NCBI RefSeq assembly: GCF_033958435.1
Contig: NC_134160.1
Span: forward strand, 9,597,001 to 9,661,000
Reading direction: 5' to 3'
DNA length: 64,000 nt
DNA from: Carettochelys insculpta
Lineage: Eukaryota > Chordata > Testudines > Carettochelyidae
The notes under the pieces were generated by a model that was not told the DNA's origin, ran no database searches, and saw only the letters and a list, made by a program, of their open reading frames with translations. Within the stretch, counting starts at the first letter, position 1. Every line of letters starts with the position of its first letter. Position numbers and translations under genes: made by a program. Below are positions 3,987-49,002 of this stretch, piece by piece.

Positions 3987-4161
3987 CAAGTAGCGGAGGG
4001 GTAGCCGTGTTAGTCTGGATCTGTAACAGCAACGAAGGGTCCTGTGGCACCTTATAGACTAACAGAAAAGTTTTGAGCATGAGCTTTCGTGAGCACAGCT
4101 CACGCTCATGCTCAAAACTTTTCTGTTAGTCTATAAGGTGCCACAGGACCCTTCATTGCTG
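3987..4161. mobile_element. Head-to-head inverted pair of Penelope-type tail repeats
   Basis: Two roughly 70-bp arms (CCTGTGGCACCTTATAGACT and its complement) meet near 4097 with their 3' tails outward. The pair is bracketed by TTACTTGAGTCT (3975-3986) and TTACTTGACTCT (4162-4173), an 11/12 direct repeat. The palindrome therefore looks like a single insertion with a target duplication. Confidence 0.8.
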
Positions 4162-4237
4162 TTACTTGACTCTGGTACTCTAAGGTGGCGCAGAGGTCAC
4201 TCTGCTTCACCCTGTCTCAGGACAAAGCTTGAGGACC

Positions 4238-4632
4238 GTGGCTACGCTAGCACCCCCCCTTTCGAAAGGGGGATGCTAACGAGCCGCTTCGGCAGATGCT
4301 AAGGAGGTGCTGCTGTGCATATGCAGCGCCTCATTAACGTAATGGTGGCCGTGCGCGTTTCAAAAGGGCCGCTATTGAAATGCACGCCGCCGGTGTAGAT
4401 GGGGGCCTTTCGAGAGGACCCCTGGACTTCGAAAGCCCCTTCTTCCCATTTGTTTTTGAAATCCAGGGGGGTCCTTTCGAAAGGCCCCCGTCTACACCGG
4501 CGGCGTGCATTTCAATAGCGGCCCTTTCGAAACGCACACGGCCACCATTATGTTCATGAGGCCTCGTTAGCATTGGCTGAAGCAGCTCACTTGCATCCCC
4601 CTTTCGAAAGGGGGGTGCTAGGGTAGCCATGG
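4238..4632. mobile_element. Palindromic TTTCGAAA foldback MITE
   Basis: About 395 bp that is nearly its own reverse complement. The ends read GTGGCTACGCTAGCACC and, inverted, ATGGCTACCCTAGCACC, each followed by CCCCTTTCGAAAGGGG. The centre is near 4437. Open frames inside are by-products of the symmetry. The superfamily is uncertain because I could not fix a target duplication. Confidence 0.8.
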
Positions 4633-4639
4633 CCCAGCT

Positions 4640-5970
4640 GGGAAGTCCCTCAGAATTGGTTAAGTAGGATGATGCCCAGAGGTGCTTAATCTGTTGTGCT
4701 CCTTGCTCCAGCCTGACACAAAGATCTTAGGGTGTCGGCAGTGACTTAAAGAACGAACGTGACTGCCTTTACAGTTCTGGAGCCTAGTCCAGAATTGCTC
4801 CCAGGCCCCATCTGAATACTACTGAACTGTATGTGACCTGGAGGAAGCTGCTAGTGAGGAAAAGACCCAACTGACGAGATGAGCAAAGGCAGTAAACGTT
4901 AGCTGGGGACCCTTCGTCTGTGCAAGGACCTGTCTCCATCCACTCGCTGACCTCAGCAAGTTCAGGACTATGCAAGGCAGCACCCAAGTGAATTGTGGTG
5001 AGTGCATATGAAGGGAGGAGGGGGTTTGGTAGAGGCAGCTCTGATGCCTTTCTAATGCTTCCCTGCCTGACCAAGGTGTAGCACTTTCATAAACAAGTGA
5101 AAGCTGATGGATGAGAAACTGCAGCTAAAGAATTGCATCGCTTGAACGTGTTTGACCAGGTATGCGTTCTGTGTGCTCTGGAAAGGGGAAGTTGCCAAAG
5201 GGCTCTTTGCACTGCACAAAGAGAGGGGGCGTCATCCGCCAGCAGTCAGCTGCAGATTTGTCATGCGCTGACTTTGAAACAGCCGTGAATGGTACAGGCG
5301 GCTTTCAGGGCCAGGAGTGGGTGAAGTTAGATGGCATGTGGGTTCAGGTTCCAGCCCTTCATAGGGAAAGGTATGTGTGTAAGCCAGCCGCAGAAATTGT
5401 GCACTGTCCTTTAACTCAAGGCCTGGAATTCCCCCATCATGTCCCTGTTGCCAGTGGAGAGCAGCGCTACTAACCTGGTTTGATACCATTTTTCCCAGAA
5501 CAAGGTACAAAGCCTGAGAGACTTGGGGGCCCAGCGTAGGATAGAAATGGGGGAGTAGGGCTCTCCTTGAACGCAGCTGGCTTTTTCATGTCATTGCAGC
5601 AGGGCTGATGAGGGTGGGGGGAGGCAGAACCTGATGCTCTGGTGATTGGGCTCAGGCGTACAGACTGTAGGCTGTTAACAATGGACATGAGGTCTGTTTA
5701 AAGGAAAAAATCATGTCCAGGAAATGACAGTATTGGCACCTCCTCGCTGCAGCGGGTCTGGCTGCATCTCAGAGCTGCAAGTGGCTCAGTGCCTGATTCC
5801 ACTCAGTCCAGTTTAATCCTATTGATTTTAATAGTTAAGCCTGTTTGTACACCAGTGTGAGCTCAGAGTCTGGCCCTAATGAAGGGAGCAGATGCATGTG
5901 GAAACTGGACTGTAACCTAGCTGGAGTGGCCTGACAGTATTTTCATGTATGCTGTGTATAAGCTTCCTTC
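4640..5970. other. Intergenic sequence between SH3BGRL3 and UBXN11
   Basis: No conserved exon, RNA gene or recognisable repeat is seen here. On the minus strand ATTAAA hexamers lie at 5813-5818 and 5827-5832 and could serve UBXN11, about 0.9 kb past its stop codon; this is weak evidence. Confidence 0.4.
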
Positions 5971-5974
5971 TCTA

Positions 5975-6250
5975 AGGCTCTGCCTAGTCTACAATAAAAG
6001 ATCCACAGCATGGCTGTGCTGTATCTGGCCTACCTCAGCTTCATGGGCTAAAGATTACAGCATAGCAATGTAGGCTCAGGCTGGGGTCTGGGCTCTGAAA
6101 CCCTTCAAAGAAGGTGGGGTGTCTCACTGCCACACTGCTCCTTGTGCCTTGATAATCTCCGCTGCTATTTGTAGCCCCGCAGCTGAGTCCTATAAGCCCA
6201 ACTCGTGGGCTGAGATTGGTGCCAGCTGTCTTTACTGCAGTGTAGACAAA
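5975..6250. mobile_element. Degenerate non-autonomous DNA transposon (MITE)
   Basis: The termini CTGCCTAGTCTACAATAAA and, inverted, GTCTACACTGCAGTAAA are imperfect inverted repeats around about 275 bp with internal complementarity (CCCAACTCGTGGGCTGAG). The GTCTACAC-type terminus is shared with other MITEs in the window. Confidence 0.5.
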
Positions 6251-6742
6251 AGGGACCTGCTGGAGAGGATACAGGCATTGCTGAACTGAACTCACTGCAG
6301 CTTCAGCAGGGCAAAAAGTTCATGGGAATTTCATCAAAGGGGGAGAGAAACCCTGCTTGAATATGAGCCCACGGGGCAACAGGCCAGGAAGGCCTTTAAA
6401 GGAAGCCCCAAGAAGCTAGCAGGATCCAGCCCGGCAGAGTGTGGCCTTGGGAGTTTCCTCACTAATAGGAGTTAGACTTCCGGCGCTACTTCTGCCCCAC
6501 GCTTCGCTTCCAGGAAGCGGGAGGCCCAAGTAAACAATGCCCTTGAACTGAATCTAGAAAGACAACCCCACCCTCAGTCCCCTTGAGAAAGACAGAGGCT
6601 GCAGTTTATCTGATCATGCAAGGCTGCTCCTTCCTCTTGCTTTACCCCAGAACCCTGACCAAGGGCGGGGTGGGGAGGAAAGCAAGTTGCATCATGTAAA
6701 GCAGCAGCCAAAACACCAACTAGCTCATGTGAAGCTGTGAAA

Positions 6743-6902
6743 CTATCTGCGGCCCTGGCCCTCCTGGGCAGAAGGGATCTTTTCCCGCAGCAGCAGGGAA
6801 GCGTTAGGAATCAGTCCACACTCCTGCAGGGTCATGGTGTTGTCCGTATACACTCTCTGGGGAAAGGTGCTGATGATCTCATAGGGCTGTCGTTCTCCAC
6901 CC
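6743..6902 (-). CDS. UBXN11: UBXN11 last coding exon, second half of UBX domain
   Basis: Acceptor TTTCCTAG|GGGTGG, 52 codons plus TAG. It contains YEIISTFPQRVYTDNTMT and CGLIPNASLLLREK, strands 3 to 5 of the UBX fold. The Arg of the canonical FPR p97-binding loop is Gln. Confidence 0.94.
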
Positions 6903-9900
6903 CTAGGAAAGAACAGGACAATCTTTCCTGTGAGACATATTCCAAAAGGTTCTGCAGAGCTGATGGGAATAAGCCAGATGCAGAGTTACACAAGAGCAGA
7001 GGGCTGGCGCGTTTAAGAGGAACAGGGCTGTTTCCACTTGACACAGAAAGCCCAGCCAGCAGAAGGCCGTTCCAGACTGCAGCTGCTACAGAGGGGACAG
7101 CTCTTACCACTCAATACAGTAAATCCTCGATTTATGGACCCCGACTTTGGGAACAACGGACGCCCTCAGCCCACCCATTGTTCCCGAAGTCTGCCTGTAA
7201 AATCCTAAATTCCCCTCCCCACCAAAAAAGTACATAGGGTGATTTACTGCCGCGGCTGGAGTGTCTATTGCGTCCACCCTGTGGAGACATCCTGCTGTCC
7301 TCCCACCACGAGCGTGGCGCATAGGCAGGCAGATGGCACTTGCGTATGGCCCCCCTTGGTGGGAGGTGTGCGTGGTGGCTCCGCCAGGCCCTGCCAGAGC
7401 CTCCAGCAGCCGGCTCCAGCTCCAGCAGCTCTGAGTCATGGACATTTTTTGAGGGGGAGAGGGAAGGGCTGGCGGGCCAGTAAACCCTCTGATTTAACAG
7501 ACTTTTGGGTTTAATGGCACCCCTCCCCCCTTACTCTGTTAAATGGAGGGCTCACACAGAGCTTACGCCAGACCTGTAAGGAGAGCAGGGACAGGAGAGA
7601 GAGAAGGTGCCCCTGACAGGCCAAAGCTGCCTCCAGGATGTTAACAAGGGCAGTGGCAAAGTGGATTGTGAGAAGGGCAGGGCCAATTTCAAGAGCAAGA
7701 GCAACTCGTGACAGGAACCAGTGCAGGTAGTAAGGAGGAGATTGGAATGCTCCCGAAGCAGAATGGCCACAGCAGCAGGCCGTGGAATTTTACATCCATA
7801 CATAATTCCCAGGCTATTGGCCTGAGCCTGACACACTCAGCACCCCCAGAGAGGAGATGAGCTCCCTCAACCTCAGTGGACGCCGAGGGGGCTCAGCACC
7901 TGGTAGACACAGGCATCAGGATCCCGTACCTGCTGGACTTATTTCAGGGTATTCTTCAGGCAGCTCGATTCCAGAGATCACTGGGGATGTGGAAATGCCA
8001 CTGGTCTGGTTTTCACTGTGGCCTGACTGGGTGGGCGGGAGTCCAACTGGCTTACAGCAGCCCCTCCCGCCAGCCTGCTGGCATATTCCTGTACCTACCT
8101 GCTCTGGGCGAGGTGCTGGCGCAGGTCTCCTATGGTCTCTGTGAAGAGCATTTTTACAATGTATGTCTGCTCCCCAGTCTCAGATTTTATCCGGAGAGTG
8201 GAAATGTTGGAGGCTGGAGGCTGATCCTGCTCGGCTACCTTCAACCTGAGGGCCATAAAAGCCAGGCAGACAAGAAACAGCCATTTGATAGAGACTCATC
8301 AGTCATGATGAGGGGGCTGGGTTGGCAGAGCATCAGAAGAGAGACAATGAGGAAAGGGAGGTGCTAGAATAGAGGACAGTAGTTTAAAAATCTAAGGCTA
8401 TGTTTGCACTAGCACTTTTGTAGGTAAAACTACTGTTAGCTGGGGTGTGAAAAAGCATCCCCTGCCAATGCTAAATTTCCCAGACAGATGCACTGGTGTG
8501 AACAGCGTTATGTTGATGGAAGACTCTCTCTCTTGCTCATCGGGGAGCTACCCCCACTCACTGGGGGGTGTTTTTTATACCAGTGGGCCGTGCCATGTCC
8601 TGTTGCCTTACAGTAGATAGCTTCAGCAGCACAAACCCATAGCAGTTCCCTGAGCCCTGACTAATTGTGGGCAAATAGGCCAGCATGTTCTACAAAGTGC
8701 TGAAATAGCTGCATGTGGAAAATCAGCTCTACCCCCCCTAAGGGCGAGGTTGTAGCACGTCTGATAGGAAAACAAAAAAGCAGTCCAGTAGCACTTTAAA
8801 GACTAACAAAATAATTTATTAGGTGATGTGCTTCTGTGGGACAGACCCACTTCTTCAGCTAAATTATACTATTAAAAATAATATTATATTATTATATTAC
8901 ATTATAATATTAAAAGAATACATTATTTTGTTAGTCTTTAAAGTGCTGCTGGCCTGCTTTTTTGCTTTCATAGAGTACAGACTAACACAGCTCTCTCTCT
9001 GTTACTATTCATTCCTGTCTGATATGATGAGGTGCTCTTTGACTTGCTGAGACCAGCTGGTGTCCTTTGCTATGGATGAAGGCTGCCGAGGAGGATTGTT
9101 TATTTGCCTTTTTAAATACAAAATTCTCTTGGGTTTATGCTGACCATAGAAATTCAGGTCTCATCCAGCCTGGAAGACTGTGACTAAATGAGAACTGGTG
9201 CAATGGTGACCCATTTGCTCACTCTTCCCAGGAGACACTTCCCCATTCAGATGGTGATAATTGAGAGCAGAAGGAATTTATAGGCAGCCAGTTGAAACTC
9301 CTGGGGCTTTGCTTGTGAACACCCCTTTAACACCAAGGGCTAGCTAACATTTTGAATAAAGGAAGCTGTTGGTAACATTCTGAAAGAAGATGTCAGAATT
9401 CACCATAAACATCTCAGAGGTCTCTCCAAACTAGAAAAGACCAATCCCGGCCTTTCTGCTCTTTCTAAAGTAAAAGCCAAGCAGATAAAAGTACAGAGTT
9501 TTTGGTTTAAAACAAACAAACCATCCCTTTTCAGGCCCTCTTTATCCATCACAAAGCAGCAAGATGGGGCAAATCACTAAGGCAACCCTTATAGGCTGCC
9601 TTTGACCTGTGACTGGTAGCCAGCCAGGAGGGACTTTGTGTACTGGCCAAGGGACCACTGTTCTTTACCTCTCCTTCATTGTCCCAATGCTGGGTGTTTC
9701 CACCAGGATCACTTCGCTGCTACGTGTCCCATCAGAGCCCTGAAACCAAACAGGAAATCATCAGCTATTATCTGCCCAAGTTGCCTGGATAAATACATGG
9801 GGGACAGTCCCCTGTTTTCTGGGCACAGGTGGTGAATGTCCCATCTTCCTGAGTACACTATCTACAAGACCAATGGGCTTCTCCAGCCTAAGGCCCCATT

Positions 9901-12900: not shown

Positions 12901-15900
12901 GCCCCCCACTCCAATTGACTGTTGCATCCATGGCCCATTAGCCTGGCCCCTACTGTCGGCATGTTGCCTTGGGCTCCCCGCACCGTCTGGGCCTGCTGGG
13001 CTGGCGATGGTGCAAACAATAAGACAAAAGTAGTTTGCACGGAGAAAGGGATGTCTCCTAACAGGAAGACAGCCCGGGCTTTGCATTGCTTGCCTGAAAA
13101 GGAATGCCCTCTGGATAGCGTGATTGTAGCTCTGAGGGAAAATAGCCGTCCACGATATCTTGAAGGAATTGCTGAAAGAAAGCACGAATGCTTAAAAAAC
13201 AGGCCGCACACAGACTCCATAGTGACCTCATGGCTGATACATTCCACCTGCATCAGACCAGGAGACCAACAAAGGCACCAAAGCCTCTCTGCCTGGGAAA
13301 GTCTGGCAGACCCGCTAACAGCCACTGTTCCTCGCCAAACCCTGTGGGAGGCAGAGGGGATTAGAGACATCCCACAAGCTTCAGTCGCTCTCCATTCCCA
13401 CCCTCAGCCTTTGCTGAGGGAACACTTGGATGGCAACCACTTGGCTTCCTCTGTGAACTCATCCCTACCTGCGTGGACGGCTCATCGTATGACCGGAAGG
13501 GTCCATTGAACATGATGATCCCATTCTGATAAAAAGTGAGGGATATTGCTTCGGGCTGCCTTAGTCTGGCACCTCCTGCTGTATGCTCAATTTGAGACAC
13601 GCCTTCCCCGGCCAGCACATTTAAATCTTTCAGGTTTTCCAAAATTAAATCAAAATTGATTGGGTAATTTGAAACAGTTGAATCGCCTGCAGCAAAGGAA
13701 GCAGAGTTATCGATGGGGAGGAGCCTGGAGTCTCTCTGCATGGTGATATCCCAACCCTACCATTTTTGGCCTGGCTCCCACCTGCCTCCAATTTATGCCA
13801 TTTACTTCTTTGGGAAGTGAGTGTGAAGTGCAATGACATTAGAATGGCAGTGTTTTGCCATTAGCCACTGTGCACAGGCCTACATAACGCCAGAATGGAG
13901 AATCAGTCCCTTAGTGATCAGCTTATGAACATGCATCATCTTGCTAACGCCACAGCCCTCCCCTTGGATGCCCTGATCATTTTTGTGGCTAGCATGTACT
14001 TGGCATTGTTCCTTGCCTGGTGCTGTACTATACAAGAAAGGAAGGGGAGATGGCTGACCCAAAGCACTTAACTGCTGGTCTAACCTAGGCTGTAACTGCC
14101 GCATAAAGTTGTTCCTGTAGGGAACAGACAGGACTCCAGCTGACTGACTGATTTCAGAGGCACATAAACAATAATTTCTAAACAATCATTTCCCCTTCTG
14201 GTGGGTTATTGTGAAGGTGGGGGTCATCTGGGTGCTTGAAGAAAAGATCCCAGGTTTGGGGGCAGAGCAGGAGAGGTCTGCAGACAACAGTTGGGCAAGT
14301 ATGTGTGTTTACCCCTGAAAGCTAAATACATTTTTAGTCTCTAAGGTGCTACAGGACTTTTTGTTGTTTTTTTTAGGTGAGAAAGTGAGTGCAGAGAAGT
14401 GGGCCAGGAGGAGGCTTCTGATATTTTCAGTTCCTCTTTTGCTAGATTCTCTTGCGGGGGGAGGGGGGGGGAAGCAATAAGAGGAAACAACCTTTATAAA
14501 TGCATCAATTTCCAAATAAGGCCAAGGGAACCGACATGCAGCTAAGCAGCAATGCTTTGTGCTCTACACCCACTGCGATTCAGAGATCCTCTCCCTCGCC
14601 TACTTTAAGAGGTTGCAGAATTAATTAGCTGGTGTTTTGCACAGCACTGCAAAGATATTCTCATTCTCTCTTAGCACTTATCAGGACACCATTACTAAAT
14701 ATAATACAATGTATTCAACACAACATAAGAGGCTCCTGACAAAACCACTCACATGGCTGATGGAGGAATGGAACAACAGTGTATTTTGATGGGGTCAGGC
14801 ACTAGGGGCAAAGCCACACATCTAATGCATACTGGAAGGGCCTCGTTTTGATCTCTCACCCATTTTATGTGTGCATTATCTGAGATTAGAATCAGGCTGA
14901 AATTGTTCAAGGTATGGGGGCTACTTCTGAAAATTTAGCTCCCCAAAAGAAATGGGATTTATACAATACATGCAGTTACTAAACTACGTGCCTGGAGCTT
15001 TTGTGTTACATTGCAAGTCTCCCTTCTACTGAAATGGATTAGGATGTGGGCCCCAGCATCACCATGAGGAAATCATAACAGGCAAGGATGTTTGCATTTG
15101 TAAGTCTGCAAGACTTATCCTATTCAATCTGCATCCAGAGAGACCTATAAACATTAGACCCTTTCATCCAACTGTACTAATTTTTTACAGGGCACCTTTA
15201 CCCCCACTATAAGTTATTACTTGGAATGATACCTGTGCACTTCTAACACTTAGGAGCTTTTGAAAAATCCCATACTATAGCTTTTTGTGTTCCCCTGAAA
15301 CAAAGAGATTGGTTTGGGGCTTCAGACCCCTCAGGCTATCATTCCCAACAGGTCCTCTTCTCAACAGAAGCACCGTGGGACATCACTGACACCAAGTTCC
15401 CCACTTAGCCTCGGTCTCTCCAGTTCAGAGCTGAAACACATTGGCAGTGCCATACAGGGGAAGCCTGAGCAGCTCCTGCCCATGCAGTGCCTGTTCTACA
15501 GATAAGAGAGAGATTTCTAAAGGACAGTTACATGACTGAGTTTTATCTGAAGTCAAAAGGGTACTGGGTGCTTATCTCTTCCCTTTGTGCCCAGAGATGA
15601 TAATAAAGTTTAGGAAAAGGGAACTAAAATGTGCCGCTCAAAACAAACTAACAAGCCAAACACATTCATCCAAACAACAAAAAGTCTTGTGGCACCTTAT
15701 AGACTAACAGATATTTTGGAGCATAAACTCTCGTGGGCAAAGACCCACTTCATCAGATGCATGAAACCACCCCCCACTCATGCATCCGATGAAGTGGGTC
15801 TTTGCCCACGAGAGTTTATGCTCCAAAATATCTGTTAGTCTATAAGGTGCCACAGGACTTTTTGTTGTTCTCAATGCTACAGACTAACACAGCTCCCTCT

Positions 15901-20949: not shown

Positions 20950-23490
20950 CAGTGTAATGAAATTTAACATCCTTGTGATGGGGAAAACACCTTAGCAGCC
21001 CAACACTGTGGCATTTAATTTCAGAAAGGGTAAAAGTACACAAAACTGAGGAAGTTAGTTAAACAGAATTTAAACAGAAATTAAATTAAATTAACAGAAA
21101 TTAAAAGGTACAGTGCCAAAAGTAAAATTGCTGCAAGCTTCATGGGAACTTTTCAAAGATACCATAATAGAGGCCCGGCTTAAATATACACCCCAAATTA
21201 AAAACATAGTAAGAGTACCCAAAAAGTGCTACTGTGGCTTAACAACCAGGTAAAAGAAGCAGTGAGAGATAAAAAGGCATAATTTAAAAAGTGAGGAAAA
21301 CAGAAAGAATAAACTGTCATGATAAGTGTAAAAACGCAATAAGGAAAGTCAAAAAGGAGTTGAGGAACAACTAGCCAAAAAGTCAAAAAGTAAGAGCAAT
21401 ATGTTTTTTAAGTACACCAGAAGCAGGAAGCCTGCTAAACAACCATGGGGTCACTGGATGATCGAGATGCTAAGGGACCACTCAAAGATAAGGCCAATGC
21501 AGAGAAACTCAATGAATTCTTTGCTCTGGTCTTCACAGCTGAGGATGTTAGAGAGACTCCCAAATCTGACGAATTTTCCATGATTGAGGTGTCATTAGAG
21601 GTGGTTCTGGAAGAAACTGATAAATAATAACAACATTATAGGGACCAGATGGCATTCACCCAAGAGTTCTGAAAGAACTCAAATGTGAAATTACAGAACT
21701 ATTACTTGTGGTTTTTAATTTAGCCCTGAAATCAGCTTCTGTACCCAATGACTGGAAACTAGCTAACGTGACACCAATATTTAGAAAGGGCTCTAGAGGT
21801 GATCCTGGCAATTACAGGCCAGTAAATCTAATATCAGTACTAGGCAAATTAGTTGAAACTATCGTAAAAAAATAAAATTGTCAGACACATAGATGAACAT
21901 AATTTGTTGGGGAAAAGTCAACATGGTTTCTGTAAAGGGAAATCATGCCAAACTAGAGTTCTTTGAGCGGTCAATAAGCATGTGGACAAAGGGATCCACT
22001 AGATAGTGAACTTAGATTTCCAGAAAACCTATGGCTAAGTCACTCAGCAAAGGCTCTTAAGTAAAGTAAGCTGTCATGGGATAAAAGAGAAGGTCCTCTC
22101 ATGGATAACTGGTTAAAAGACCCCCCTCACACTCCTCCTTCAGTCCTATGTACTTGATTTGTCAGTTTTAACTGCAATTTTTTTTGGACCTCTGTATTTA
22201 TAGATGTCAGTCTGTACTGGAAGTGCTATTGATCTGATGAAGTGGGTCTGTCACACGAAAGCTCATCACCGAATAAATTATTTTGACAGTCTTCAAAGTG
22301 CCACATTTCTGCTGTTTTGTTTGGTTAAAAGACAGGAAACAAAAGGTAGGAATATATGGCCAGTTTTCAGAATGAACAGTGATAACTAGTGGTGTCTCCC
22401 AAGTGTCTGTACTGGGATCATTCCTATTCAACTAATTTATACATGACCTGGTGAAGAGGGTAGGTAAACAGTGAGGTGGCAAAATTTGCAGATGATACTA
22501 AACTGCTTAATATAGTTAAGAACAAAATAGACTGTGAAGAGCTTTAAAAAGATCTCACAAAACTAAGTGACTGGGCCACAAAACGGCAAATGAAATTTAA
22601 TGTTGATAAACGTAAAGTAATGCGCATTGGAAAAATAATACAACTATACATACAAAATAATGGGGATTAATTTAGCTATAACTACTCAAAAGAGAGATCT
22701 TGTAGCCATTGTGGATAGCTCTCTGAAAACATCCACTCAATGTACAGCAGCAGTCAAAAAAGCTAGCAGAATGCTAGGAATCATGTAAAAAGACATAGAG
22801 AAAAAGACAGAGATGATCTCATTGACTTTATATAAATCCATGGTACAGCTACATCTTGAATACTGTGTACAGATGTGGTCACCTCATCTCAAAAAAGATG
22901 TATTGGCACTGGAAAATATTCAGGAAACGGCAACAAAAATGATCAGGGGTTTGGAACATGTGCCATATGAAGAAAGATTAAAGAGACTGGGACTTTTTAA
23001 CCATAGAAAGGAGGAGTCTAAGAAGGGAATATGGTAGAGGTTTATAAAATCATGAGAGGTATGAGAAAAGTAAATAAGAAAAAGTTATTTATTTGCTCCC
23101 ATAACATCAGAAAGTGGGGTCACCAAACAAAATTAATGGGTAGCAGGTTTAAAACTAACAAAAGGAATTTTTTCTTCAAGCAGTGGATGACAGGCCTGTG
23201 GAACTCCTTGCCAAAGGATATTGTGACTACCAGTACTTACAGGGTTCAAAAAGAACTGGATAAATTCATAAAGGTTAGATCCATACATGACTATTAGCCA
23301 GGGTGGGTAGGAATGGTGTCCCTAGCCTCTATTTGTCACAAGCTGGAAATAGATATCAGGAGAGGAATCACTCAGGGACTGCGTGTTCTGTTCACTACCT
23401 CCGTGGCACCTGGCATGGCCCACTGTCAGAAGACAGGATACTGAACTAGATGGATCTTTGGTCTAACCCAGAATTCTTATGGCACAATCC
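20950..23490 (+). mobile_element. CR1 LINE, decayed 3' half including reverse transcriptase
   Basis: Plus-strand order runs from a decayed endonuclease-to-RT spacer through RT-like segments (ACCAATATTTAGAAAGGGCT, 'KGSRGDPGNYRPV'-type sense near 21780) and the FADDTKL region (near 22480) to the characteristic 3' end (GATACTGAACTAGATGGATC, then CCCAGAATTCTTATG). Many stops and frameshifts make it inactive. It lies in the large 5' UBXN11 intron and is interrupted by a tail repeat near 22226. Confidence 0.85.
22226..22325 (+). mobile_element. Penelope-type tail repeat nested in CR1
   Basis: CTGATGAAGTGGGTCTGTCA, CACGAAAGCTCATCACC and AGTCTTCAAAGTGCCACA form a single sense copy interrupting the CR1 sequence. 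It keeps an intact CTGATGA start. Confidence 0.7.
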
Positions 23491-24434: not shown

Positions 24435-24648
24435 TGTGTCTACACGGGCACAAATCTTCAAAATGGCCATGCTAATGGCCATTTGAAAGATTACTAATGA
24501 GGCACATAATTGAATATTCAGCACCTCATTAGCATAAGGATGCTTCGAAAGCGCCGCTTTCGAAAGCACATGGCTCAGCATGGCTACACAGGGGTCATTT
24601 TCGAAAGGACCTGCATCTTTCGAAATCCTCTTATCCCACTCAGTGAGG
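24435..24648. mobile_element. Left part of a palindromic MITE interrupted by a Penelope-like element
   Basis: Begins GTGTGTCTACACGGGCACAA and contains GAATATTCAGCACCTCATTAG and several TTTCGAAA motifs. Its inverted partner resumes at 26031 (CTAATGAGGTGCTGAATATT) and ends TGTAGACACAGTC near 26125. Confidence 0.75.
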
Positions 24649-25512
24649 AGGGGTATTCAAAGAGTGGGGTCCCAGTAAAAGGGAAGGCCAGAGCTGACAA
24701 GGTCTATTCAGCAAGGTGGAAATGGCCCAGTATCAATAGTACTTACCAAAAGAGGAAAAAACAAATCAGATCAGACAGGGGGATGTGAGCTTTTGTCAGA
24801 GTCTAATGGGGAGATATTAACACCCAGAGCAGAGAAGCTGGGAGGCACTCCCAGTCTCTGTTTAATCCATGGTTAATGGAGTCAAATTTGCAAATAAATT
24901 GTAGCTCAGAGATTTCTCTCTTCATTTGATTTTTGACATTTTTTTGTTTCAGGACTGTCACTCTTAAATCTGTCACTTAGTGTCCAGGGAGATTGAAGAG
25001 TTCTTCCACAGGCATCTGTACATTACCATTCCTGATGTCTGATTTATGTCCATTCATTATTTTACGGAGAGAGTGTCCAGTTTGGCCAATGTAAATCGCA
25101 GTGGGGCATTCCTGGCACATGATGGCATATGTTATATTGGTAGATGTGCAGGTAAAGGAGCCCCTGATGGTATGGTTGATGTTAGGTCCTGTGATGATGT
25201 CACTGGTGTAGATATGTGAGCAGAGTTGGCAACGAGGGCTGTTGCAGTGGCTGGTTCCAGGCCTGGAGTCACTGGTTTGTGATTTGTAGTGGTTGGTGAG
25301 GATTTGTTTAAGGTTGGCAGGCTGTCTATAGGCGAGGACAGGCCTGCCTTCCAAGATCTGTGAGAGTGAAAGATCATTGTTCAGGATGGGTTGCAGATCA
25401 CTGATGATGCGCTGGAGAGGCCTTAGGTGGGGTCTGTATGTGATGGTCAGTGGTGTTCTCTTGTTTTCCTCGCGAGGCCTGTCTTGTAGCAGGTGGCTTC
25501 TGGGTACCCGTC
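24649..25512 (-). mobile_element. Penelope-like retroelement (Neptune-like), 5'-truncated, with GIY-YIG endonuclease
   Basis: Minus-strand reading gives the end of a reverse transcriptase-type region (LAYRQPANLKQIL), a Cys-rich spacer (CNSPRCQLCSHI), and a GIY-YIG-like nuclease (ITYAIMCQECPTAIYIGQTG, then HSLRKIMNGHKSDIRNG). This arrangement is that of Penelope-like elements. The open frame 25354-24977 is followed by a decayed remainder and a 3' untranslated region that includes CCCTTTTACTGGGACC. It is a fragment and cannot be active. Confidence 0.85.
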
Positions 25513-26030
25513 ACACATCAGGAACGGTTAATGTACAGAAGCCTGTGGGAGAACACTTCAATCTCCCTGGACACTCAGTGACAGATTTAAGGGTGACAGT
25601 CCAGAAACAAAAAAATTTCAAAAATCAAATGGAGAGAGAGGTCTCTGAGCTGCAATTTACTTGCAAATTTGACTCCATTAACCATGGATTAAACAGAGAC
25701 TGGGAGCTGCTCGCAGTTTACAAAGGCAGCTTCTCTGGTCTGGGTGTTAATATCTCCCCATTAGCCTCTGACAAAGGCGCACATCCCGCTGTGTGATCTG
25801 ACTTGTTTTTAACTCTTTTGATAAGTGCTATTGATATTGGACCATTTCCACCTTGCTGAATAGACCTTGTCAGCTCTGCCCTCCCTTTTACTGGGACCCT
25901 ACTCTTTAAATACCCCTCTGAAACCCTCTGAAACTCATCCATCTGATGAAGAGGGTCTTTGCCCACAAACGCTTATGCTGCAAAATATCTGTTAGTCTAT
26001 AAGGTGCCACAAGACTTCTTGTTGTTCTCT
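25513..26030 (+). mobile_element. Penelope-like retroelement, second copy in inverse orientation, with 3' tail
   Basis: Plus-strand reading resumes just after the nuclease core (PVGEHFNLPGHSVTDLRVTV) and runs through the C-terminal region, the same 3' untranslated sequence as its partner, and then without interruption into ATCTGATGAAGAGGGTCTTT and TCTATAAGGTGCCACAAGAC. That terminal 110 bp is the short repeat found alone elsewhere. The two copies are joined head to head. Confidence 0.85.
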
Positions 26031-26125
26031 AATGCTAATGAGGTGCTGAATATTCAATTAAATGCCTCATTAGTAATCTTTGAAATATGGCCATTTTGAA
26101 GATTTGTGCTCATGTAGACACAGTC
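26031..26125. mobile_element. Right part of the interrupted palindromic MITE
   Basis: CTAATGAGGTGCTGAATATT through TTTGTGCTCATGTAGACACA complements the left part that starts at 24435. Confidence 0.7.
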
Positions 26126-29570: not shown

Positions 29571-29572
29571 AT

Positions 29573-32825: not shown

Positions 32826-35024
32826 TTCTGACACACTTTAATATGTTGCTATTACTTTTTGAGCTTTTTGGCTAGCTACTCTTTAAATTATTTTTAGCCT
32901 TTCTAAAAATACTTTTACACTTCATTTGACAGAGTTGATGCTCTCTTCTAAGATTTAACTTCCACTTTTTAAACAAAGCCTTTTTATTTCTCACTGCTAC
33001 CTTGAGTTGGTTGTTAATCCATGATGGCACATTTTTGGTTCTCTTACTGTGTTTTTTTAATTTGGGGCATACATTTAAGTTGAGCCTCTAATATGGTGGT
33101 TTTGCAAAGTGTCCATGCAGCTTGCGGGGATTTCAATTTTGACACTGTACTCTAATTTTTGTTTAACTAGCCTCCTCATTTTGTGTAGTTCACATTTCTG
33201 AAATTAAATGTCACAGGGTTGGGCCGCTGTGATGTTTTTCCCACCACAGGGATGTTAAATTTAATTAATTCACTATTTCCGAGTGGTCTAGCTATATTCA
33301 TTTCCTGGACCAGATCCTGTGCTCCCCTGAAGACTAAATGAATAACTGCCTCTCCTTTTGTGGGTTATAGAAGCAACTGCCCCCCAAAGCAGTCATTTAA
33401 GGTGTCAAGAAACTTTATCTCTGTATCTTGTCCTGAGGTCACATGTGCCCAGTCAATATGGGGATAGTTGAAATCCCCCACTAATACTGAGTTTTTTATT
33501 TTTATAGTCGCTCTGTAATCTCCCTTGGCACTTCACAGTCACTGGCACCATCCTGGTCAGGCGATTAGTAATATATCCCTACTGCTATATTCATATTATT
33601 AAAGCATAGAATTATTGTCTATAGCGATTCTATGGTACAATGTGATTCATGTAAGATTATTGCTTCATTTATTTTTATTCTTTCTTTCACATGCAGCGTC
33701 ACTCCCCAGCCAGCATGACTTGTTCTCTCCTTCCAGTATATTTTGTACCCTGGTATTTCTTTGTTCCATGTATTATTCTCCTTCCATGAGGTTTCAGTGA
33801 TGCCTATAGTATCAATATCCTCCTTTAATACGAGGTCTTCTAGTTCACCCATCTTGTTATTTACAATCCTAGTGTTTGTACATCAGAACTTTAAAAACTT
33901 CCCAGTCTTTAGCTAACTGCCATTACATGATGTGATTGAATGGGGCCCTTGTCCATTTGACTGTTTCTCATCAGCTCTTACCTGTATTTTATCACTTCCA
34001 TCCTCCCCTCCTTACCTAGACGTAAAGAATTGCTATTAATAGACCCTCTCCTTAGGGATGTCTCTGCCCCATTCATGGCCTCCTCCACGGCTGCCAGCTT
34101 TCCCCAAGCCCTTAGTTAAATCAGCTGCAAGACCTTTTTATACATCCTTTCTGAATAGGCTCCTTCTTTCCCCAAAGTTTCCCCAGGTCCTAATAAATCT
34201 AAACGTCTCCTCCCTAAACCATTGGTCTCCTCCTTTTATTAAGACCCTGTACTTCTGCTTGTCTAACTGGTCGTTTGCACGGGAGTGGAAGCATTTCAGA
34301 GAATGCTGCCAGGAGATTCCGGATTTCAATCTCTCACCTAGTAGCCTAAATTTGGCCTGCAGGGCCTCTTTCCCTATGTCACTGGTACTTACATGTTGCA
34401 TGACCACTTGATCCTCCCTAGCACTACACATCAGTCTCCCTAGATGCCTTGAGAGGTCCGCAACCCTTGCGCCAGGCAGGCAAATCACCATACGGTTCTC
34501 CTAGCCATCACAAACCCACCTATCAAAACAAAAAAGCAGTCCAGTAGCACTTTAAAGACTAACAAAATAATGTATTAGGTGATGAGCATTCGTGGGACAG
34601 AGCCACTTCTTCAGACCAAACCCACCTATGTTTCTAATAATCAAATCCTTCATTATGAACAGCTGTCTTTTCCTAATAACTGGAGGTCCCTCCTCCAGAG
34701 ATCATTCCTCAGTGCAAGAGGGTACTGTGGCATCATCTGGAAGGAAGCATTTCCCAGTGCTCCAGTTGAATGTTCTTTTTTCCTGAGACTTTCGCCCTTC
34801 TCAGCAGTACAGAGGCTGTCTGATCAGAGGTTGGACCATTCTACTGTGTCCTATAAGGTCTCACCTATGTACCTCTCCGCTTCCCTTAGTTCTTCCAGTT
34901 CAGCCACCCTGATCTCCATAGCCTGGATAGTCCCTTAAGGCCAGGAGCTGCTTGCACCAAAAACACATGTGTGCCACCTGCCCATCACACATGCTGCACT
35001 GAAGGCAATGAACAGGAGAGTCTC
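32826..35024 (-). mobile_element. CR1 LINE 5' half: ORF1 esterase-like and endonuclease regions
   Basis: Minus-strand fragments in order: ORF1 with RVADLSRHLGRLM and FRLLGERLKSGISW (SGNH/esterase-like region, about 34490-34140), then the apurinic-type endonuclease (IDTIGITETSW near 33800, GDFNYPHIDW-like near 33450) and further decayed sequence to about 32830. A tail repeat with its own target duplication is inserted at 34524-34616. Pseudogenised by stops and frameshifts. Confidence 0.8.
34524..34616 (-). mobile_element. Solo Penelope-type tail repeat, family B, 13-bp target duplication
   Basis: A 93-bp unit (AAAAAAGCAGTCCAGTAGCA to CGTGGGACAGAGCCACTTCT) is flanked by CAAACCCACCTAT at 34511-34523 and 34617-34629. 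This gives exact borders: on its sense strand the unit starts at CTGAAGAAG (after two bases) and ends in a T-rich tail. The host sequence is CR1 ORF1. Confidence 0.9.
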
Positions 35025-35032
35025 CACTCTGT

Positions 35033-35484
35033 GTAGTATCAGAGAGGTAGCCGTGTTAGCCTGTATCTTCGAGAACAACAAGAATTCCTGTGGCACCTTA
35101 TAGACTGATGGATATTTTGGACCATAAGCTTTCATGGGCAAAGACCCACTTTGTCAGATGCATGAGTGGTGGTGGTGGGGGGGGTTCGAGGAGTATTGAA
35201 AGAGGGTGATCCCAGTAAAAGGGAAGGCCAGAGCTGACAAGGCCTATTCAGTCAGGGTGGAAATAGTACATTATCAGTAGTCTACATCAAGAAAGGATTG
35301 AAAAAAACAAGTCAGGTCAGTCAGGGGGATGTGGCCCATTGTCAGAGTCTAATGTGGAGGTGTGAACTTCCGCAGCAGAGAAACTGCTTTTGTAAGAACA
35401 ACAAGAAGTCCTGTGGCACCTTATAGACAAACAGATAAGGGATCAGCCACTCCCAGTCTCTGTTTAATGCTTGATTGTTGGAGT
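35033..35484 (-). mobile_element. 5'-truncated Penelope-like element: 3' untranslated region plus terminal tail
   Basis: Sense (minus) order is the 3' untranslated sequence shared with 24.6-26.0 kb (CCCTTTTACTGGGATCACC) followed directly by GCATCTGACAAAGTGGGTCT and the tail to GATACAGGCTAACACGG. CACTCTGT at 35025-35032 and 35485-35492 brackets the whole 452 bp. An extra tail scrap lies near 35392-35442. Confidence 0.8.
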
Positions 35485-35657
35485 CACTCTGTTTTGGTTG
35501 ATTTTAGATTAAAGAAGTTTAAAGAATGTTAAGTGTATTTATTTCCCCCGACCCCTCAAATCTGCCTCTAAATTCCCTGCAAAAGTCCCCATGTTAGCCC
35601 CCCCTTTTATTTCGTATCTTTTGACTAGCAATGCTTTTGGGATAATCTAATGATTCC

Positions 35658-35793
35658 TAATGAATAGTAACAGAGAGATAGCAGTGTTAGTCTATATATT
35701 ATCAAAACAAAAAAGCAGCCCTGTAGCACTTTAAAGACTGACCAAATAAATGATTTTGTTAGTCTTTAAAATGCTGCTGGACTGCTTTTTTGT
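35658..35793. mobile_element. Inverted pair of tail repeats, family B, 12-bp target duplication
   Basis: The antisense arm holds AAAAAAGCAGCCCTGTAGCA and the sense arm GTCTTTAAAATGCTGCTGGA, meeting near 35748. TCTAATGATTCC occurs at 35646-35657 and 35794-35805. The pair lies about 150 bp upstream of the CD52-like promoter. Confidence 0.85.
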
Positions 35794-35942
35794 TCTAATG
35801 ATTCCCAGTTCACTTTAATGATCAATCACAGCCACTTACACACAAACTCCCTGATACAAAGGCTTTGCTGCTCCTGAATTCACCAGACTCAAAGCCCGTC
35901 CCCTGCACTCCCCCACGTGCGGCATGGAGGTTGCAGCGGTTT

Positions 35943-36132: not shown

Positions 36133-39100
36133 GTAAGACCAGCCCAGATGGTTCTGGTGGAGACCAAATTCCATCAAAACCATGGTTAGGTCAGCTGAAC
36201 CCATATCAACTAAATGGGACTGGGTTCTGGGCAGGGTTCCCTCTAACTTATCCATCCATGGGCAGAATAAATTTTATTATGTGCACCCAGGCATGTGTGG
36301 ATGTGCACCACTATAGAAACACAGGCTGCTGGCTGTGGGCGCTCTGCTACTCAGCTGGGTGGCCCCTGACTTTCTCCTGGCAGCTGCCCAAGCTCTCAGC
36401 CTACAGGGAGCACTGGTTCTGGGGCAACTGATTTGGATCAACTTGTCTATGTTGCCCTATTGTATCTTTTTACTAGATTTTTACCTTAATCTAATTCCAC
36501 TGGATTTTTAGACATGCTCCTCCACATGGTAGCTGAGCATCACATGATTTGTAAAAAGACATTTTACTTTCCTCTTCATTTCTTTCTCTCATACACAGAT
36601 GTGATTCATTATTTGTCTTATCATAGCACCTAATACTATGTCCCTTGGGCTGTGGGACTGGCGCATGTAATCATCTGTCTATGGTCTGTCTCAGTCCTGC
36701 CTTGCTGAGGGCATCTGAGCCTCTCACCATCTGTAATGCATTTATCCTCACAGCACCCCTGTGATGGAGGGGATTACTGTGACCCCATGTTGATCCCCTG
36801 TCTCTCCCTTTGCCAGTCCCCAGTAACTTTAACAATCCCAATTTCAGTCTCTCCTCACCTGGCGGGAGTTCTTTCCAGCCACGTAAATATTTTTTTATCT
36901 CTGGTCTCTCGATCCACTCTGTTCAGGTGTTTTTCTCGAGATAGGGCGAACTAACCTGTGCACTCCAGCTCAGGGTATTCCACTGAATAGTTGAAGTCCG
37001 TTATCATTGTGAGTATTCTACTGTGCATTTTTTTTTTTTTTTTTTTTGAAAGATGTAGGCGTACCATAGTTTTATATAGGGGAAGTAAGATATTCTTTGT
37101 CTTATTTTCTATCCCTTTTTAAATTATTCCTAACATCCTATTTGCTGTACTGACTGACACTGCACACTGCGTGGATGTTTTCAGAGAACTGTCCACTATA
37201 ATTCCAAGATCCCTTTCCTGATCTGTTGTAGCTAAATTTGCCCCATCATATTATATGTACAGTTAGGGTTATTTTTCCCAATGTGCATTACCTTACACTT
37301 ACCCTCATTACATTTCATTTGCCATTTTGCCGCCCAATCACTCAATTTGCTGAGATCTTTTTGAAGTTCTTCACAGTCTGCTTTGGTTTCGATTATCCTG
37401 AACAGTTTGGTGTCATCTGCAAACTTTGCCACCTCACTGCTTACCCCTTTCTCTAGATCATTGATGAATAAGTTGAACAAGATTGGTCCCAGGACTGACC
37501 CTTGGGGAACGCCACTAGTTACCCCCTTCCATTGTGAAAATTTACCATTTATTCCTACCCTTTGTTTCCTGTCTTTTAACCCAATCCATGAAAGGATCTT
37601 TCCTCCTATCCCATGAGCACCTAATTTACATAAGAGCCTTTGGTGAGGGACTGCGTCAAAGGCTTTCTGGAAATCTAAGTATACTATGTCTACTGGATCC
37701 CCCCTGTCCGCATGTTTATTAACCCCTTCAAAGAACTCTAGTAAGACACGACTTCCCTTTACAGAAACCATGTTGACTTCTGCTCAACACATCATGTTCC
37801 TCTACGTGTCTGACAATTTTATTCTTTACTATTATTTCTACTAATTTGCCCGGTACTGACGTTAGACTTACGGGCCTATAATTGCTAGGGTCTCCTTTAG
37901 AGCCCTTTTTAAATATTGGCATTATATTAGCTGCCTTCCAATCATTGGGTACCAAAGCTGATTTAAAGGATAGGTTACAAACCACCATTAATAGTTCTTC
38001 AATTTCACATCTGAGTTCTTTCAGAACCCTTGGGTGAATACCATCCGGTCCCGGAGACTTGTGACTGTTTAGCCTATCAGTTAGTTCCAAAACCTCCTCT
38101 AATAATGTCCCTCCTCTAAGTCTGGCACATGTCGGTACCAGTGAAGAAAGGGAAGGATAGGAGAGAAGTCTTGGAAGCCCAAATTTAAGTTTCTGGGTAA
38201 GAGCTTGAAGTCGAGGACCTCCCTGGTGGCATTCTCTGATATATTTCCTGTTCCACACGCATGGACACTTAGGCAGAACTACTGTGTCACAATGCCTGGA
38301 TGAGACAATGGTGTAGGGAGGAGGGGTTTTGATTTATTAGGAACTGGGGAAACATTTGGGAAAGGAGGGACCTCATACAGGAAAGGCTGACTTACTGGCT
38401 TACCCGCTGAAAGCCTTGTACTCTGAGTGAAGCACTGGTCACCTACGAGTCTCCTCCACTTCACTCTGTCTCAAGACGAAACTTCTAACTGACTCCAGAA
38501 GTGCCCTGGTTGTTGTCTTTCAATCACAGTAGATTTTCTCCTCATTGTCTGAGGTCTTTCTCCTTTGTGCTTTCCTTGTGGGTTCCATGTGAGAGTTTGA
38601 TGGACTCTGCTGGATGACAGCTTTCTGAAAGTGTGACCCAGCCATTCCCACTTTCTTCTGATGATTTGAATGTCAAGTGGTTCTTGTCCTGCTCTGTTCC
38701 AAAGCTCCTCTTTTGTGACATAGCTAAGCTCCACCAATATGGAACCAGCTTGGTGGCACATACAATTAAAAAGGTCACGGATCAATTTTTAAAGTAAGGC
38801 CCGGAGAAAAGCTGACAGGGAGGAAGATCACATGCTTTGGACTTTATGAATGGAGATTAATTTCTATGTCCTAGTAAGGAGCACAGGATGGAAAATTATA
38901 AAACGCCAGCAGTTTTCATCAGAAATGGTCAGACAAAAAGTATCCCATTTGATTACATCATGTAATGGCAGACAGTTAAAAATGACAAGTTTTTAAAGGG
39001 CTTATGTACCTCTGATAGAAGTCTAAACTCGAGTGCCTTGTTTTAGATGAGGATATCGACATAATAGGCATTACAGAAACTTTGGGAAATGAGGATAATA

Positions 39101-44470: not shown

Positions 44471-45002
44471 TGTGTTCATTTAACTAAACAGGCTTACAAG
44501 TCACACCTGTAGTTAAACGTGTGTGCTTTTGTGTGTAGACCAGGCCTAGGTACAAACGCATTAAGGAGAATGTTGGAAAAGCAGCTGAGAGTGAAGATCA
44601 GGTGAGAGGGGAAAAGGATCTTAGAGCTATGGGCTAATAAAACCCTCAAAGCTTGTGTATAAGTAACCCACACACCTGCTGTGTGCAGTTTGTTGTCCTG
44701 TGTAGCAGTACCTAGACCACTTACACAAGGAAAAAGTGAGTCTCCTCTACAGCCTGAGCTGAGCTTCTGCTGGCTTCTAGCTCAAGCTTATGCACTAAGC
44801 TCTAGAGGTCCTCAGTTCTAGTCTGCCTGCTGGTGACTATGCACTCACAACTGGCACCCCATTAATGCTCCCTAGCTCTTATGGCTAAGTCCTGTGCTTT
44901 AATCAATCAGGCAGTCCTGCCTAATGGCGAATTCAGCTGCTCTCATCGCTCTCTGTGCATTGTTAAATTGGGTTAAGAATGATTTATTTTGATTTAAAAT
45001 GA

Positions 45003-45062
45003 AAAAGCAGTCAAGTAGCACTTTAAAGACTAACCAAATACTTTATAAAACTATAATTATAA
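45003..45062 (-). mobile_element. Short family B tail fragment
   Basis: AAAAAGCAGTCAAGTAGCAC and TTTAAAGACTAACCAAATAC. Confidence 0.6.
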
Positions 45063-45069
45063 TTTTAAA

Positions 45070-46830
45070 AATAATTATTTTGATTTAATGGAAGATTGAT
45101 TCCTAATCAATGTACTCTAAGCCAAAGCAAGCCTCTCTCACCAGTGAAAGACACCTGATCATCCAGCGGCTGTCACAATTTAGTGAATCTGTTTAAACCC
45201 ATAACTTCAAGCAGGGACACCACCATGCCTTGCTCCTGTGCCCAGCGCCAAAAGAGAGCTTCTCAGGTGTTCAGTTAAAGTTTGTGCATAAAACAGCCCC
45301 AAATTCCAGCCTGGATTGCAGAGCCATGGAATGAGACGCTGCCTGCCTTACAAGAGGCCCAGGGACACACTCGGCTCCAAACACCCCTGACTGCATGGCT
45401 GGTTCCGACCTGGTTTTGCATCAGGCCTCTGCGGTGTGGGTTTGTCTCTCATGTTACAGGAAGGTGCTAACACCTACTGTTCTCCTAGACATACCGTTTC
45501 CTATGTACAGTGATTGCAGCTAGGTGGGGCGAAAAGCTGCCGGAAGAATAGGCTGGGGTGTGAGAAAGTTTCAGCACAGTTTCAAGGCACAAAACCAGCC
45601 CAGCGTTTCCTCCTTGCAAAGTATAACAATGACATTCTCATCCCAGGGCTCAGCACAGTGCAGGGGCCAGATGGGAAGGGCAAGGGTAAGGCATGATGTT
45701 CTGTAATGGTCATCAAAACCAACTTTATCCCAAACCAACCATGGAGAAGAAATCTCAGTCACCTGCTTTAGTTGCTGAGGGTTTGGGAGCACAAGGAGGC
45801 CAGAAGCGCTGCCCCTATGTGTGCCGAGGGCTGCGTTTGGGCTGATGTTGTATCTGCCCAGTGCTCCTAACATGCCAAGGCTCCTGGTATCTCCATAGAG
45901 CATGAATTACCAGAGGGCCCCTCGCACACCAGCTGGCTGGAGTGTGGTGTTTGCGCTTGCAGAGGCTGATGGGGCTGGGCGCTGCACTCCAGACAGAATG
46001 ATCTGTTTCCAACCCGTTCAAATCAAGTCATGGCTCACTTGAACTTTAACCTACGCTGGGGACTAAACAGTGACCCTGGCTCATCAAAACTGTGGCCCAA
46101 GCTCCAGTCCACCCTCCACTCATATGAACTTCCCTGACAGTTGAGAGTCCCGGTGTCTCACCAGATAGGGTCACCCGTCTATTTTGATGCACACCTTTGG
46201 GAACCTTTTAGCTCCTCATCTCAGGGGGTTAAATTACTTCTGCCGCTCACTTTGATGCTGGGCTTTGCATTCAAGTCCATTCACATGCCTCAGAATTTGG
46301 GGCCAGACCTACAGCTGGTGTAAATCAATTGTCCTGAGCTATGCTGATTTACACCAGCTGAGGATCTGGCACGTAGGGAACTGCACATCAGACAAGCTCA
46401 CGGGCCTCTTGATCTTGACCCATGTGGTGACTAGGAACTTATGGCTCCGTGGAAAGTAAACTGACCAATGCACGATTTTTGTTGGGGTGAAATTCCTTCC
46501 TGACCCCCAGTAGCAAAGAGCATGGAGCATGGCGTTTGCCTGCTTCCTGCCAAACTCACAAACTGAAAACGCTAACGTTGGCCACAAAATTATCCTGCAC
46601 CTTTGGGTGTTTGACTCAATGGCCTCTAGCAGGGGCAATATTGCAGCTGATAATCCCAGCCCAGTGGTGATCACACTGTGCAACACACGTGTCTTTCCTT
46701 CCCCCCGCCAGATCAACGGCAACCTAGCACAGCGTGCTTAGTGAACGAAGAGTGGCCTCTGGGGGTCAAGAGGCAGTAGAGCAGCCATAAAGGCATAAGA
46801 AAGGAGTCTTAACTTCAGTGAAACCTGGAA
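45070..46830. other. Intergenic sequence, no gene recognised
   Basis: Unique-looking sequence with no exon or repeat that I can support. Open frames are short and unsupported. Confidence 0.35.
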
Positions 46831-46835
46831 GTGTT

Positions 46836-47250
46836 GGCTGTGTCTACACGTGCATTCCTCTTTTGAAAGAGGCATGCAAATGAGGGAAATTGAAAAATGC
46901 AAATGAGGTGCAGATCTGCATATCCGGCACCTCATTTGCATATTCTTATTTCGAAATGGCTTCTTTTGACAGAAGAGAAACCAGTGTGAACTTTGCTCTT
47001 TCGAAAGTAAACCCCATCTTAGCAAGAATCCTTCTTCCCATGAAAAAAGGGAAGAAGGATTTGTTCAAAGACGGGGTTTACTTTCGAAAGAGCAGTGTCT
47101 AGGCTGGTTTTCTTCTTTTTAAAGAAGCTATTTCGAAAGAAGAATATGCAAGTGAGGTGCCAGATATGCAAAGCTGCACCTCATTTGCATTTTTAATTTT
47201 CCTCATTTGCATTCCTCTTTCGAAAGAGGAATGCAAGAGTAGACACAGCC
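46836..47250. mobile_element. Palindromic TTTCGAAA MITE, complete
   Basis: About 415 bp; ends GGCTGTGTCTACACGTGCAT and, inverted, GGCTGTGTCTACTCTTGCAT. It contains ATTTGCAT runs, TTTCGAAAGAGCA on both arms and a centre (GAAGAAGGATTC-type) near 47040. Confidence 0.85.
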
Positions 47251-47390
47251 ATTATCTCATAGAGATAATAATATATGGAGCTATACATCTCATAGAGCTG
47301 GAAGGGACCTCAGAAGGATCCATAAATGGCCCCCTTAAGGGCTGAACTCTCAACCCTGGGTTTAGCAAGCTAAAGCTCAAACCTAACTTC

Positions 47391-47606
47391 AGAGGGGGAG
47401 CTGTGTTAGTCATCTTCGCAAACAAAAAAGCCATCTTGTAGCACTTTAGAGCCTAACAAACTAATTTATTAGGTGATGAGTTTTCATGGAACAGACCCAC
47501 TTCTTCTGAATTTCCAGCTCTGAAGAAGGGGGTCTGCCCCATGACAGCTCATCAACTAATAAATGATTTTGTTAGTCTTTAAAGTGCTACAGGATGGCTT
47601 TTTCAG
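47391..47606. mobile_element. Inverted pair of tail repeats, family B
   Basis: Antisense AAAAAAGCCATCTTGTAGCA and sense GTCTTTAAAGTGCTACAGGA arms with outward tails and a short centre (TTCTGAATTTCCAGCTCTGAA). A target duplication is not clear here. Confidence 0.75.
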
Positions 47607-47639
47607 ATGTGATTTTCAACTGACACGGTGCAGCCGGCT

Positions 47640-48860
47640 CAAAAGGCTATGTAGACACACGTATTTCAGTTGGAATGCGGCTTTATTTTGAGCTCACCCT
47701 CATCAATGTAAACTAAACCAAAGTAAGTCTGGTAAAAAGGAAACTGTGTCCACACAGCCTTTGTACTAAGTCCATTTAAAAATCACACGTTCCATTAGAA
47801 TGGTGTAAGTGCACACACAGATACTTCCTCAGGAATCAGCTCAGAGAGGGATCAGGAAAAGTGTGGTCATGGCCGGAGGAGATTTCAGCCTCAAAATTCA
47901 GATCTAGATCCAGATGTGGAACAGCCCAGGGCTCCAGTGCTAACAGGACTCGGGAAGGGTGAATTTGGCTCACATCGAGTGGTAATAATGCTGATGATAG
48001 AGGTGAGGATTCTGCATCAATAGAACAATGCAGGGCAGGAGAGGATTAGTCCACAACACAGACCATCTAGGGCGACAGACCTAAACTCTGTCTTAAAAAC
48101 TGCTGCTGCTGCTTGCTTTTCAGTGCTCTTCTGACCCAAGAATGAGCATGTATTTCTTAAATCAACAAGCTCTATCACCCTCAGAATAAACTCTGCCCAT
48201 CAAGAGGGGGGATCTGATCACAGCCTTCCTGAAAGAGCGGGTTCCAAAGAGGATGGAGGGGGACTATTCTCAATAGCAACAGAACAAGGAGCATTGGTTG
48301 CAAGTTGCATCGGGAGAGGTGTAGGTTGGATAAGAGGAAAAGCTATTTCACCAGGACAACAAAACAGCAGTCCAGTAGCCCTTTTTTGTTTTGATAGTAT
48401 GTAGGGTGCAGTCTCCATCCCCAGGGCTTTTTAAGTCCTGGCTTGACAAAGCCCTGGCTTGGGTGATTTAATTGGGATTGGTCCTGCTTTCAGACGACCT
48501 GACGAGCTCTCAAGGTCTCTTCCAGCCCTATGAATCTATGATCACTATGACGTGCGTGTATCTTACACACGTGACGAGTGTAACAGTTTCACGTCCACTG
48601 CATTTGCTTTGTTTCCGATCATAAAGTAAAACAGGAATCATGCTACTTTACCTCCTTTATAAAGTGCTCTGAGAGCTACTGATGAAAAGCACTGCTAAGA
48701 GCTAGGCGTTAGTATTATTGAAATAAATAAAGTGAAATTTATGCAATCACGGGAATTAAAGCTGGAAAAGACCCTCCGCCCGATGCAGACCGTTTCTCTG
48801 CTGGTCTCTGCAGGACCATATCCGGCAGGGCTTTTAGTGCATTGTGTGGCTCAGAGAAAC
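47640..48860. other. Intergenic sequence with MITE remnants
   Basis: A diverged element with GGCTATGTAGACACACG (47645) and GAAACTGTGTCCACACAGCC is present to about 47830, and a family B tail scrap near 48360. Nothing coding is recognised. Confidence 0.3.
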
Positions 48861-48874
48861 TACATCAGGAGAGT

Positions 48875-48988
48875 AACAAAGAGGAAGCTGTGCTAGTCTA
48901 TACACTAGCAAAACAAAAAGCAGTCAAGTAGCACTTTAAAGACTAGCATTGCTAGTCTTTAAAGTGCTACTTGACTGCTTTTTGTTTT
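48875..48988. mobile_element. Inverted pair of tail repeats, family B, 14-bp target duplication
   Basis: Antisense arm AAAAGCAGTCAAGTAGCACT and sense arm AGTGCTACTTGACTGCTTTT, nearly perfect, meet at about 48949. TACATCAGGAGAGT (48861-48874) and TACATCAGGGGAGT (48989-49002) flank the pair. This is the youngest-looking pair in the window. Confidence 0.85.
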
Positions 48989-49002
48989 TACATCAGGGGA
49001 GT

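Follow-up and report, generated by a model that had tools for sequence, protein, structure and literature searches.

Among the Penelope families of Adineta vaga, Pen2a_Av and others have inverted pLTRs placed head-to-head within one target duplication, which is 8-10 bp long in the cases seen, with palindromes at the inverted junction and a 31-bp tail that is optional on one of the inverted pLTRs (PMC3846280). For one pLTR-flanked insert, the same paper presents the empty site, in which the duplicated stretch is in single copy, and for the inverted junctions of rotifer Penelope it proposes and favours self-priming with an antisense strand as template. PMC8969392 likewise mentions inverted pLTRs, along with 3' extensions. 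The Poseidon Penelope-like element (PLE) of Anolis carolinensis (PAc), which is of the GIY-YIG type, cleaves and extends both target strands in vitro, and its reverse transcription starts from a pair of neighbouring internal sites, between which lies the genomic 30-40 bp tail (PMC11167929). Its targets are AT-rich and, when the strands are read separately, there is no difference in start site between them; the later steps of PLE insertion are yet to be validated, according to the same study.

The window considered here, a stretch of 64,000 nucleotides from the turtle Carettochelys insculpta (NC_134160.1, positions 9,597,001 to 9,661,000), contains 23 copies of a PLE repeat (repeat model, E<1e-3; the search models were derived from copies of the same window). 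Six adjacent couples within the window are less than 200 nt apart, and all six are head-to-head, with none tail-to-tail and none direct; the inverted arrangements of pLTRs are these six pairs, P1-P6, and one long copy (Table 1). On sequence grounds the repeat is assigned to the terminal (pLTR/3') part of an endonuclease-bearing GIY-YIG PLE, because the 177-aa open frame in the long copy matches turtle proteins, the best of which carries PF01541. Thirteen proteins match this frame, the best, from Chrysemys, at 70% identity; four of the best five matches are from turtles (Chrysemys, Lepidochelys and two Caretta; 66-70% identity) and the fifth is from a lizard. A direct Pfam scan of the 177-aa piece is empty. 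The part of the PLE that is present at this locus stops short of the telomerase-like reverse transcriptase domain. The direction of the frame implies that the two arms are joined at their 5'-truncated sides, with their 3' ends pointing outward.

Table 1. PLE copies and associated features in the window
Feature	Position	Strand	Left arm	Right arm	Outer duplication	Inverted-arm identity	Gap between arms	Remarks
Pair P1	3975..4173		about 3987-4096 (-, long tail)	about 4098-4161 (+, short)	3975-3986 / 4162-4173	98% of 62 nt	19 nt, around self-complementary stretch	centre is self-complementary stretch 4089-4103
Pair P2	8759..9024		8767-8846 (-, short)	about 8917-9016 (+, long tail)	8759-8766 / 9017-9024	91% of 56 nt	96 nt, with AT-rich filler	centre is AT-rich, non-element
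Pair P3	15665..15921		about 15676-15764 (-, short)	about 15778-15909 (+, long tail)	15665-15676 / 15910-15921	98% of 92 nt	13 nt	
Pair P4	35646..35805		about 35658-35747 (-, long tail)	about 35753-35793 (+, short)	35646-35657 / 35794-35805	82% of 50 nt	5 nt, in AT-rich stretch	
Pair P5	48861..49002		48875-48948 (-, long tail)	48950-48988 (+, short)	48861-48874 / 48989-49002	100% of 39 nt	1 nt	
Pair P6	47385..47603		47385-47509 (-, long tail)	47519-47603 (+, short)	undetected	86% of 85 nt	9 nt	
Long head-to-head copy	24648..26033		about 24648-25510 (-), coding part, without pLTR	about 25511-26033 (+), 3' region and pLTR with short end	undetected			
177-aa open piece of PLE protein (GIY-YIG end)	24980..25510	-						protein matches
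Solitary short-end copy	34511..34629	-			13 nt			
Solitary short-end copy	44984..45088	-			14 nt			
Solitary short-end copy	22110..22333	+			12 nt			within LINE-like repeat
Longer solitary copy with long tail	35025..35492	-			8 nt			

The six pairs fall into two subfamilies of the repeat, and their centres are all unlike one another in spacer and in truncation point. The arms are unequal in P2 and in the long copy; in the latter, about 470 nt of coding sequence is confined to the left arm and a pLTR to the right. AT-rich stretches at 8840-8915, in the centre of P2, and at 45046-45074, beside the solitary copy at 44995, have no match to the PLE and are possibly filler from joining. A second element, rich in TTTCGAAAG and with inverted ends, is found at 4233-4635, 24435-24538 with 26029-26122, 46835-47251 and 63063-63468, and the long PLE copy sits inside one of these. 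A core-like hammerhead motif is present in two PLE copies (19983 and 22234) and in three places outside PLE copies. The Rfam hammerhead models have no match in the whole window, nor in two sub-ranges at a relaxed threshold, and the predicted fold of one PLE copy is no better than that of shuffled sequences. The idea that the arms generally join at a hammerhead stem was rejected, as only P1 fits it. Rfam as a whole gives nothing at gathering score across the window; in the two sub-ranges at a relaxed threshold it gives only microRNA-type and other matches below gathering score, mostly on the palindromes. A degenerate 19-nt motif of the repeat has no match among viral contigs; three bacterial MAG contigs have one weak match apiece (12 to 18 bits against the repeat model), probably due to chance.

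Five of the six pairs are enclosed by a single outer duplication. The direct repeats quoted for these five pairs in the preliminary description are all present where it placed them, that of P3 being 12 nt long, against 11 as quoted. The duplications of P3 and P4 are 12 nt and exact, those of P1 (12 nt) and P5 (14 nt) have one mismatch each, and that of P2 is 8 nt and exact. Among 306 controls, which are mismatched left and right flank pairs drawn from the same 18 inserts, one scores as high as P1, four as high as P2 and none as high as P3, P4 or P5; the shares among 4,000 random positions of like spacing are 0.007, 0.024, 0.001, 0.001 and 0.002 for P1 to P5, respectively. The P2 duplication, matched by those four controls, is weaker than those of the other four pairs. 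Overall, a duplication score of at least 8 is reached by 9 of 18 inserts and by 4 of 306 controls, with insert boundaries that were partly set by eye once the sequence had been read; the remaining nine inserts have no duplication above control level. P6 and the long copy are among those where none is found, their best flank match being 5 nt (share 0.57), so that the inverted copies reported earlier at 47391 and 24649-26030, though present, lend no support to the earlier claim. The duplication is variable in length, as expected of an endonuclease-containing PLE.

Outside the six pairs there are twelve inserts, counting the long copy; four of them have duplications of 8-14 nt, and in the other eight none exceeds 6 nt. 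For 22110-22333 and 35025-35492, two of the four with duplications, a boundary was set when the repeat had already been seen. The duplication at 22110-22333 is independently borne out, since the unoccupied LINE-like repeat at 37325-37822 holds the same target stretch once. When the joined flanks of 16 inserts were compared with the window, this was the one empty counterpart, for a solitary copy, and none was found for a pair. The LINE-like repeat, which we take to be CR1-like, has two copies here, the occupied one at 21400-23500 and the empty one. Nested in the longer PLE copy 35034-35484 is a short fragment of the terminal repeat, at 35387-35440, with no duplication found, and the PLE copy at 54520-54577 has its 3' side at model position 66, at neither end site, and also has no duplication.

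Integration of each pair in one event, which the preliminary description had proposed, is well supported for most pairs. In addition to the single outer duplication in five of six pairs, a comparison of the outer flanks with the centres reveals no clear internal duplication between the arms of any of the six. The best scores in the 12 comparisons are 4-7 nt; three of them reach 7, a score that 16 of the 306 outer controls also reach, the centre stretches compared being longer than the control stretches. Mates also resemble each other in detail. When a private variant is defined as one present in no other compared copy of that subfamily, the mates of P1 have six in common, those of P3 two, P5 three and P6 two, while those of P2 and P4 have none. 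At least two are common to the mates in four of six pairs, compared with none of 94 non-mate pairs, of which 15 share one (Fisher 4e-6, a rough value given the non-independence of the pairs). In P5 the loss of a single base may account for two of the three shared variants, and in P6 the two variants are adjacent and perhaps a single change. The mates differ at 10 of 63 positions in P2 and at 7 of 42 in P4; in these two pairs the signal may have been erased by age, or two RNAs may have been used. The mean identity of the true mates is reached by 2 of 48 within-subfamily re-pairings, the true pairing counted, and the 5' truncation points are concordant in mates (16 of 720 re-pairings are as good, and 3 of 48 within subfamilies).

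The outer ends of the arms have a regular structure. Nine of the 23 copies end at model positions 131-136, thirteen at 93-111 and one at 66, so that 22 end in one of two ranges that differ by an optional tail of 30-40 bp. Under the first repeat model three copies extended to 114-116, which we read as chance extension. Every outer end of the six pairs is at one of these two recurrent sites, and the solitary copies use both as well. All six pairs have one long and one short end, the short arm stopping 30-40 nt inside the distal site; four pairs have the long arm on the left and two have it on the right. The probability of six such discordant pairs by chance is at most 0.016 with independent ends, 0.014 with the frequency taken from seven solitary copies, out of eleven copies that lie outside pairs, and 0.069 under random dealing of the twelve arms. 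The pattern is significant under the independence model only and, because of the last value, is suggestive only. The ends of the pairs are in line with the tail and the pair of start sites known for a PLE in vitro (PMC11167929), and with the optional tail on one of the inverted pLTRs in Adineta vaga (PMC3846280).

Since the centres differ, the arms can be unequal and the outer ends lie at recurrent sites, each palindrome probably did not travel ready-made but was put together at its target out of two cDNAs. Thus the earlier claim that the palindrome was inserted in one event as one unit stands in its first part, on the strength of the single outer duplication in five of six pairs, the flank-to-centre matches of only 4-7 nt and the private variants in four of six, and is not supported in its second. 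We consider it likely that the palindromes are 5'-truncated, non-coding insertions of a GIY-YIG PLE, made by target-primed reverse transcription from both cut strands. The endonuclease would cleave both strands of the target at points about 8-14 nt from each other, and each free 3' end would then prime its own cDNA, both perhaps on one shared RNA or on RNAs of one source locus. One cDNA would begin at the distal start site and include the 30-40 nt tail, while the other would begin at the internal site and lack it. The two would converge, halt early and be linked through annealing or end joining, with filler added in some cases, and repair of the staggered cut would leave the single outer duplication. 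Several observations stand against priming from both strands: P6 and the long copy lack a duplication and that of P2 has only 8 nt, P2 and P4 lack shared variants, the left arm of the long copy terminates at neither start site, random dealing of the arms gives the value of 0.069, and the two strands do not differ in start site in vitro (PMC11167929). It is possible, if somewhat doubtful, that PLE integration is inherently asymmetric, one target strand starting its cDNA distally and the other internally, in which case the long and short ends would follow a rule; both cDNAs would then perhaps be made on a single RNA gripped by a protein dimer.

The near-perfect arms and the spacers of 1-19 nt in P1, P3 and P5 would also be produced by fold-back, in which the first strand snaps back and primes itself, so that the second arm is copied from the first. 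Such copying would give mates common private variants and matching truncation points, and the self-complementary centre of P1 could prime a hairpin. We nevertheless regard fold-back as unlikely, because the short arms stop at the end site used by solitary short copies rather than randomly, and because each arm of the long copy holds sequence that the other lacks, so that, barring a later loss of the left pLTR, neither is simply copied from its mate. Two separate insertions, of which the later one landed in opposite orientation beside the 5' end of the earlier, have some appeal in that PLEs may insert into their own pLTR, as suggested in PMC11167929, that P2 and P4 lack shared private variants and that P6 lacks a duplication. 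This is very improbable, since every close couple is head-to-head and five of six pairs have an outer duplication, with flank-to-centre matches of only 4-7 nt; the private variants common to mates in four of six pairs also speak against it, although later gene conversion between the arms could yield these. Two nested insertions were rejected because there is no clear internal duplication. That a palindromic RNA from an existing palindromic locus moved as a single unit would account for one outer duplication per pair but is scarcely credible, as spacer and truncation point vary among the six centres, the pairs come from two subfamilies and no two pairs in the window resemble copies of one master, so that a travelling master palindrome was rejected.

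Short palindromes of this kind are valuable because each preserves the two ends and the junction of one event. Counting them throughout a turtle genome could discriminate two-strand priming from fold-back and test the pattern of one long and one short end; the part of the finding that lends itself to testing is that the two ends consistently differ.

In LINE-1 twin priming, both target strands prime on the element RNA, producing an inversion within one target duplication; the site of the second priming is upstream in the RNA, and neither part repeats the other. In the turtle PLE pairs, by contrast, both arms begin in the same 3' region and overlap. PAc resembles the turtle element in its GIY-YIG type, in the two end or start sites that bound a 30-40 bp tail and in its AT-rich targets. 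It differs in that its start region lies within the early ORF, whereas the turtle pairs show the terminal repeat alone, and joined two-sided products are not described for the in vitro assay (PMC11167929). There is a close likeness in layout with the Penelope families of Adineta vaga, which have head-to-head inverted pLTRs (PMC3846280), one outer target duplication and an optional tail, as the turtle pairs do, even though most copies there are coding while the six short turtle pairs consist of terminal pieces only. Since inverted pLTRs with one tail inside one outer duplication are already in print in that paper, the turtle palindromes are a further example of a known arrangement.
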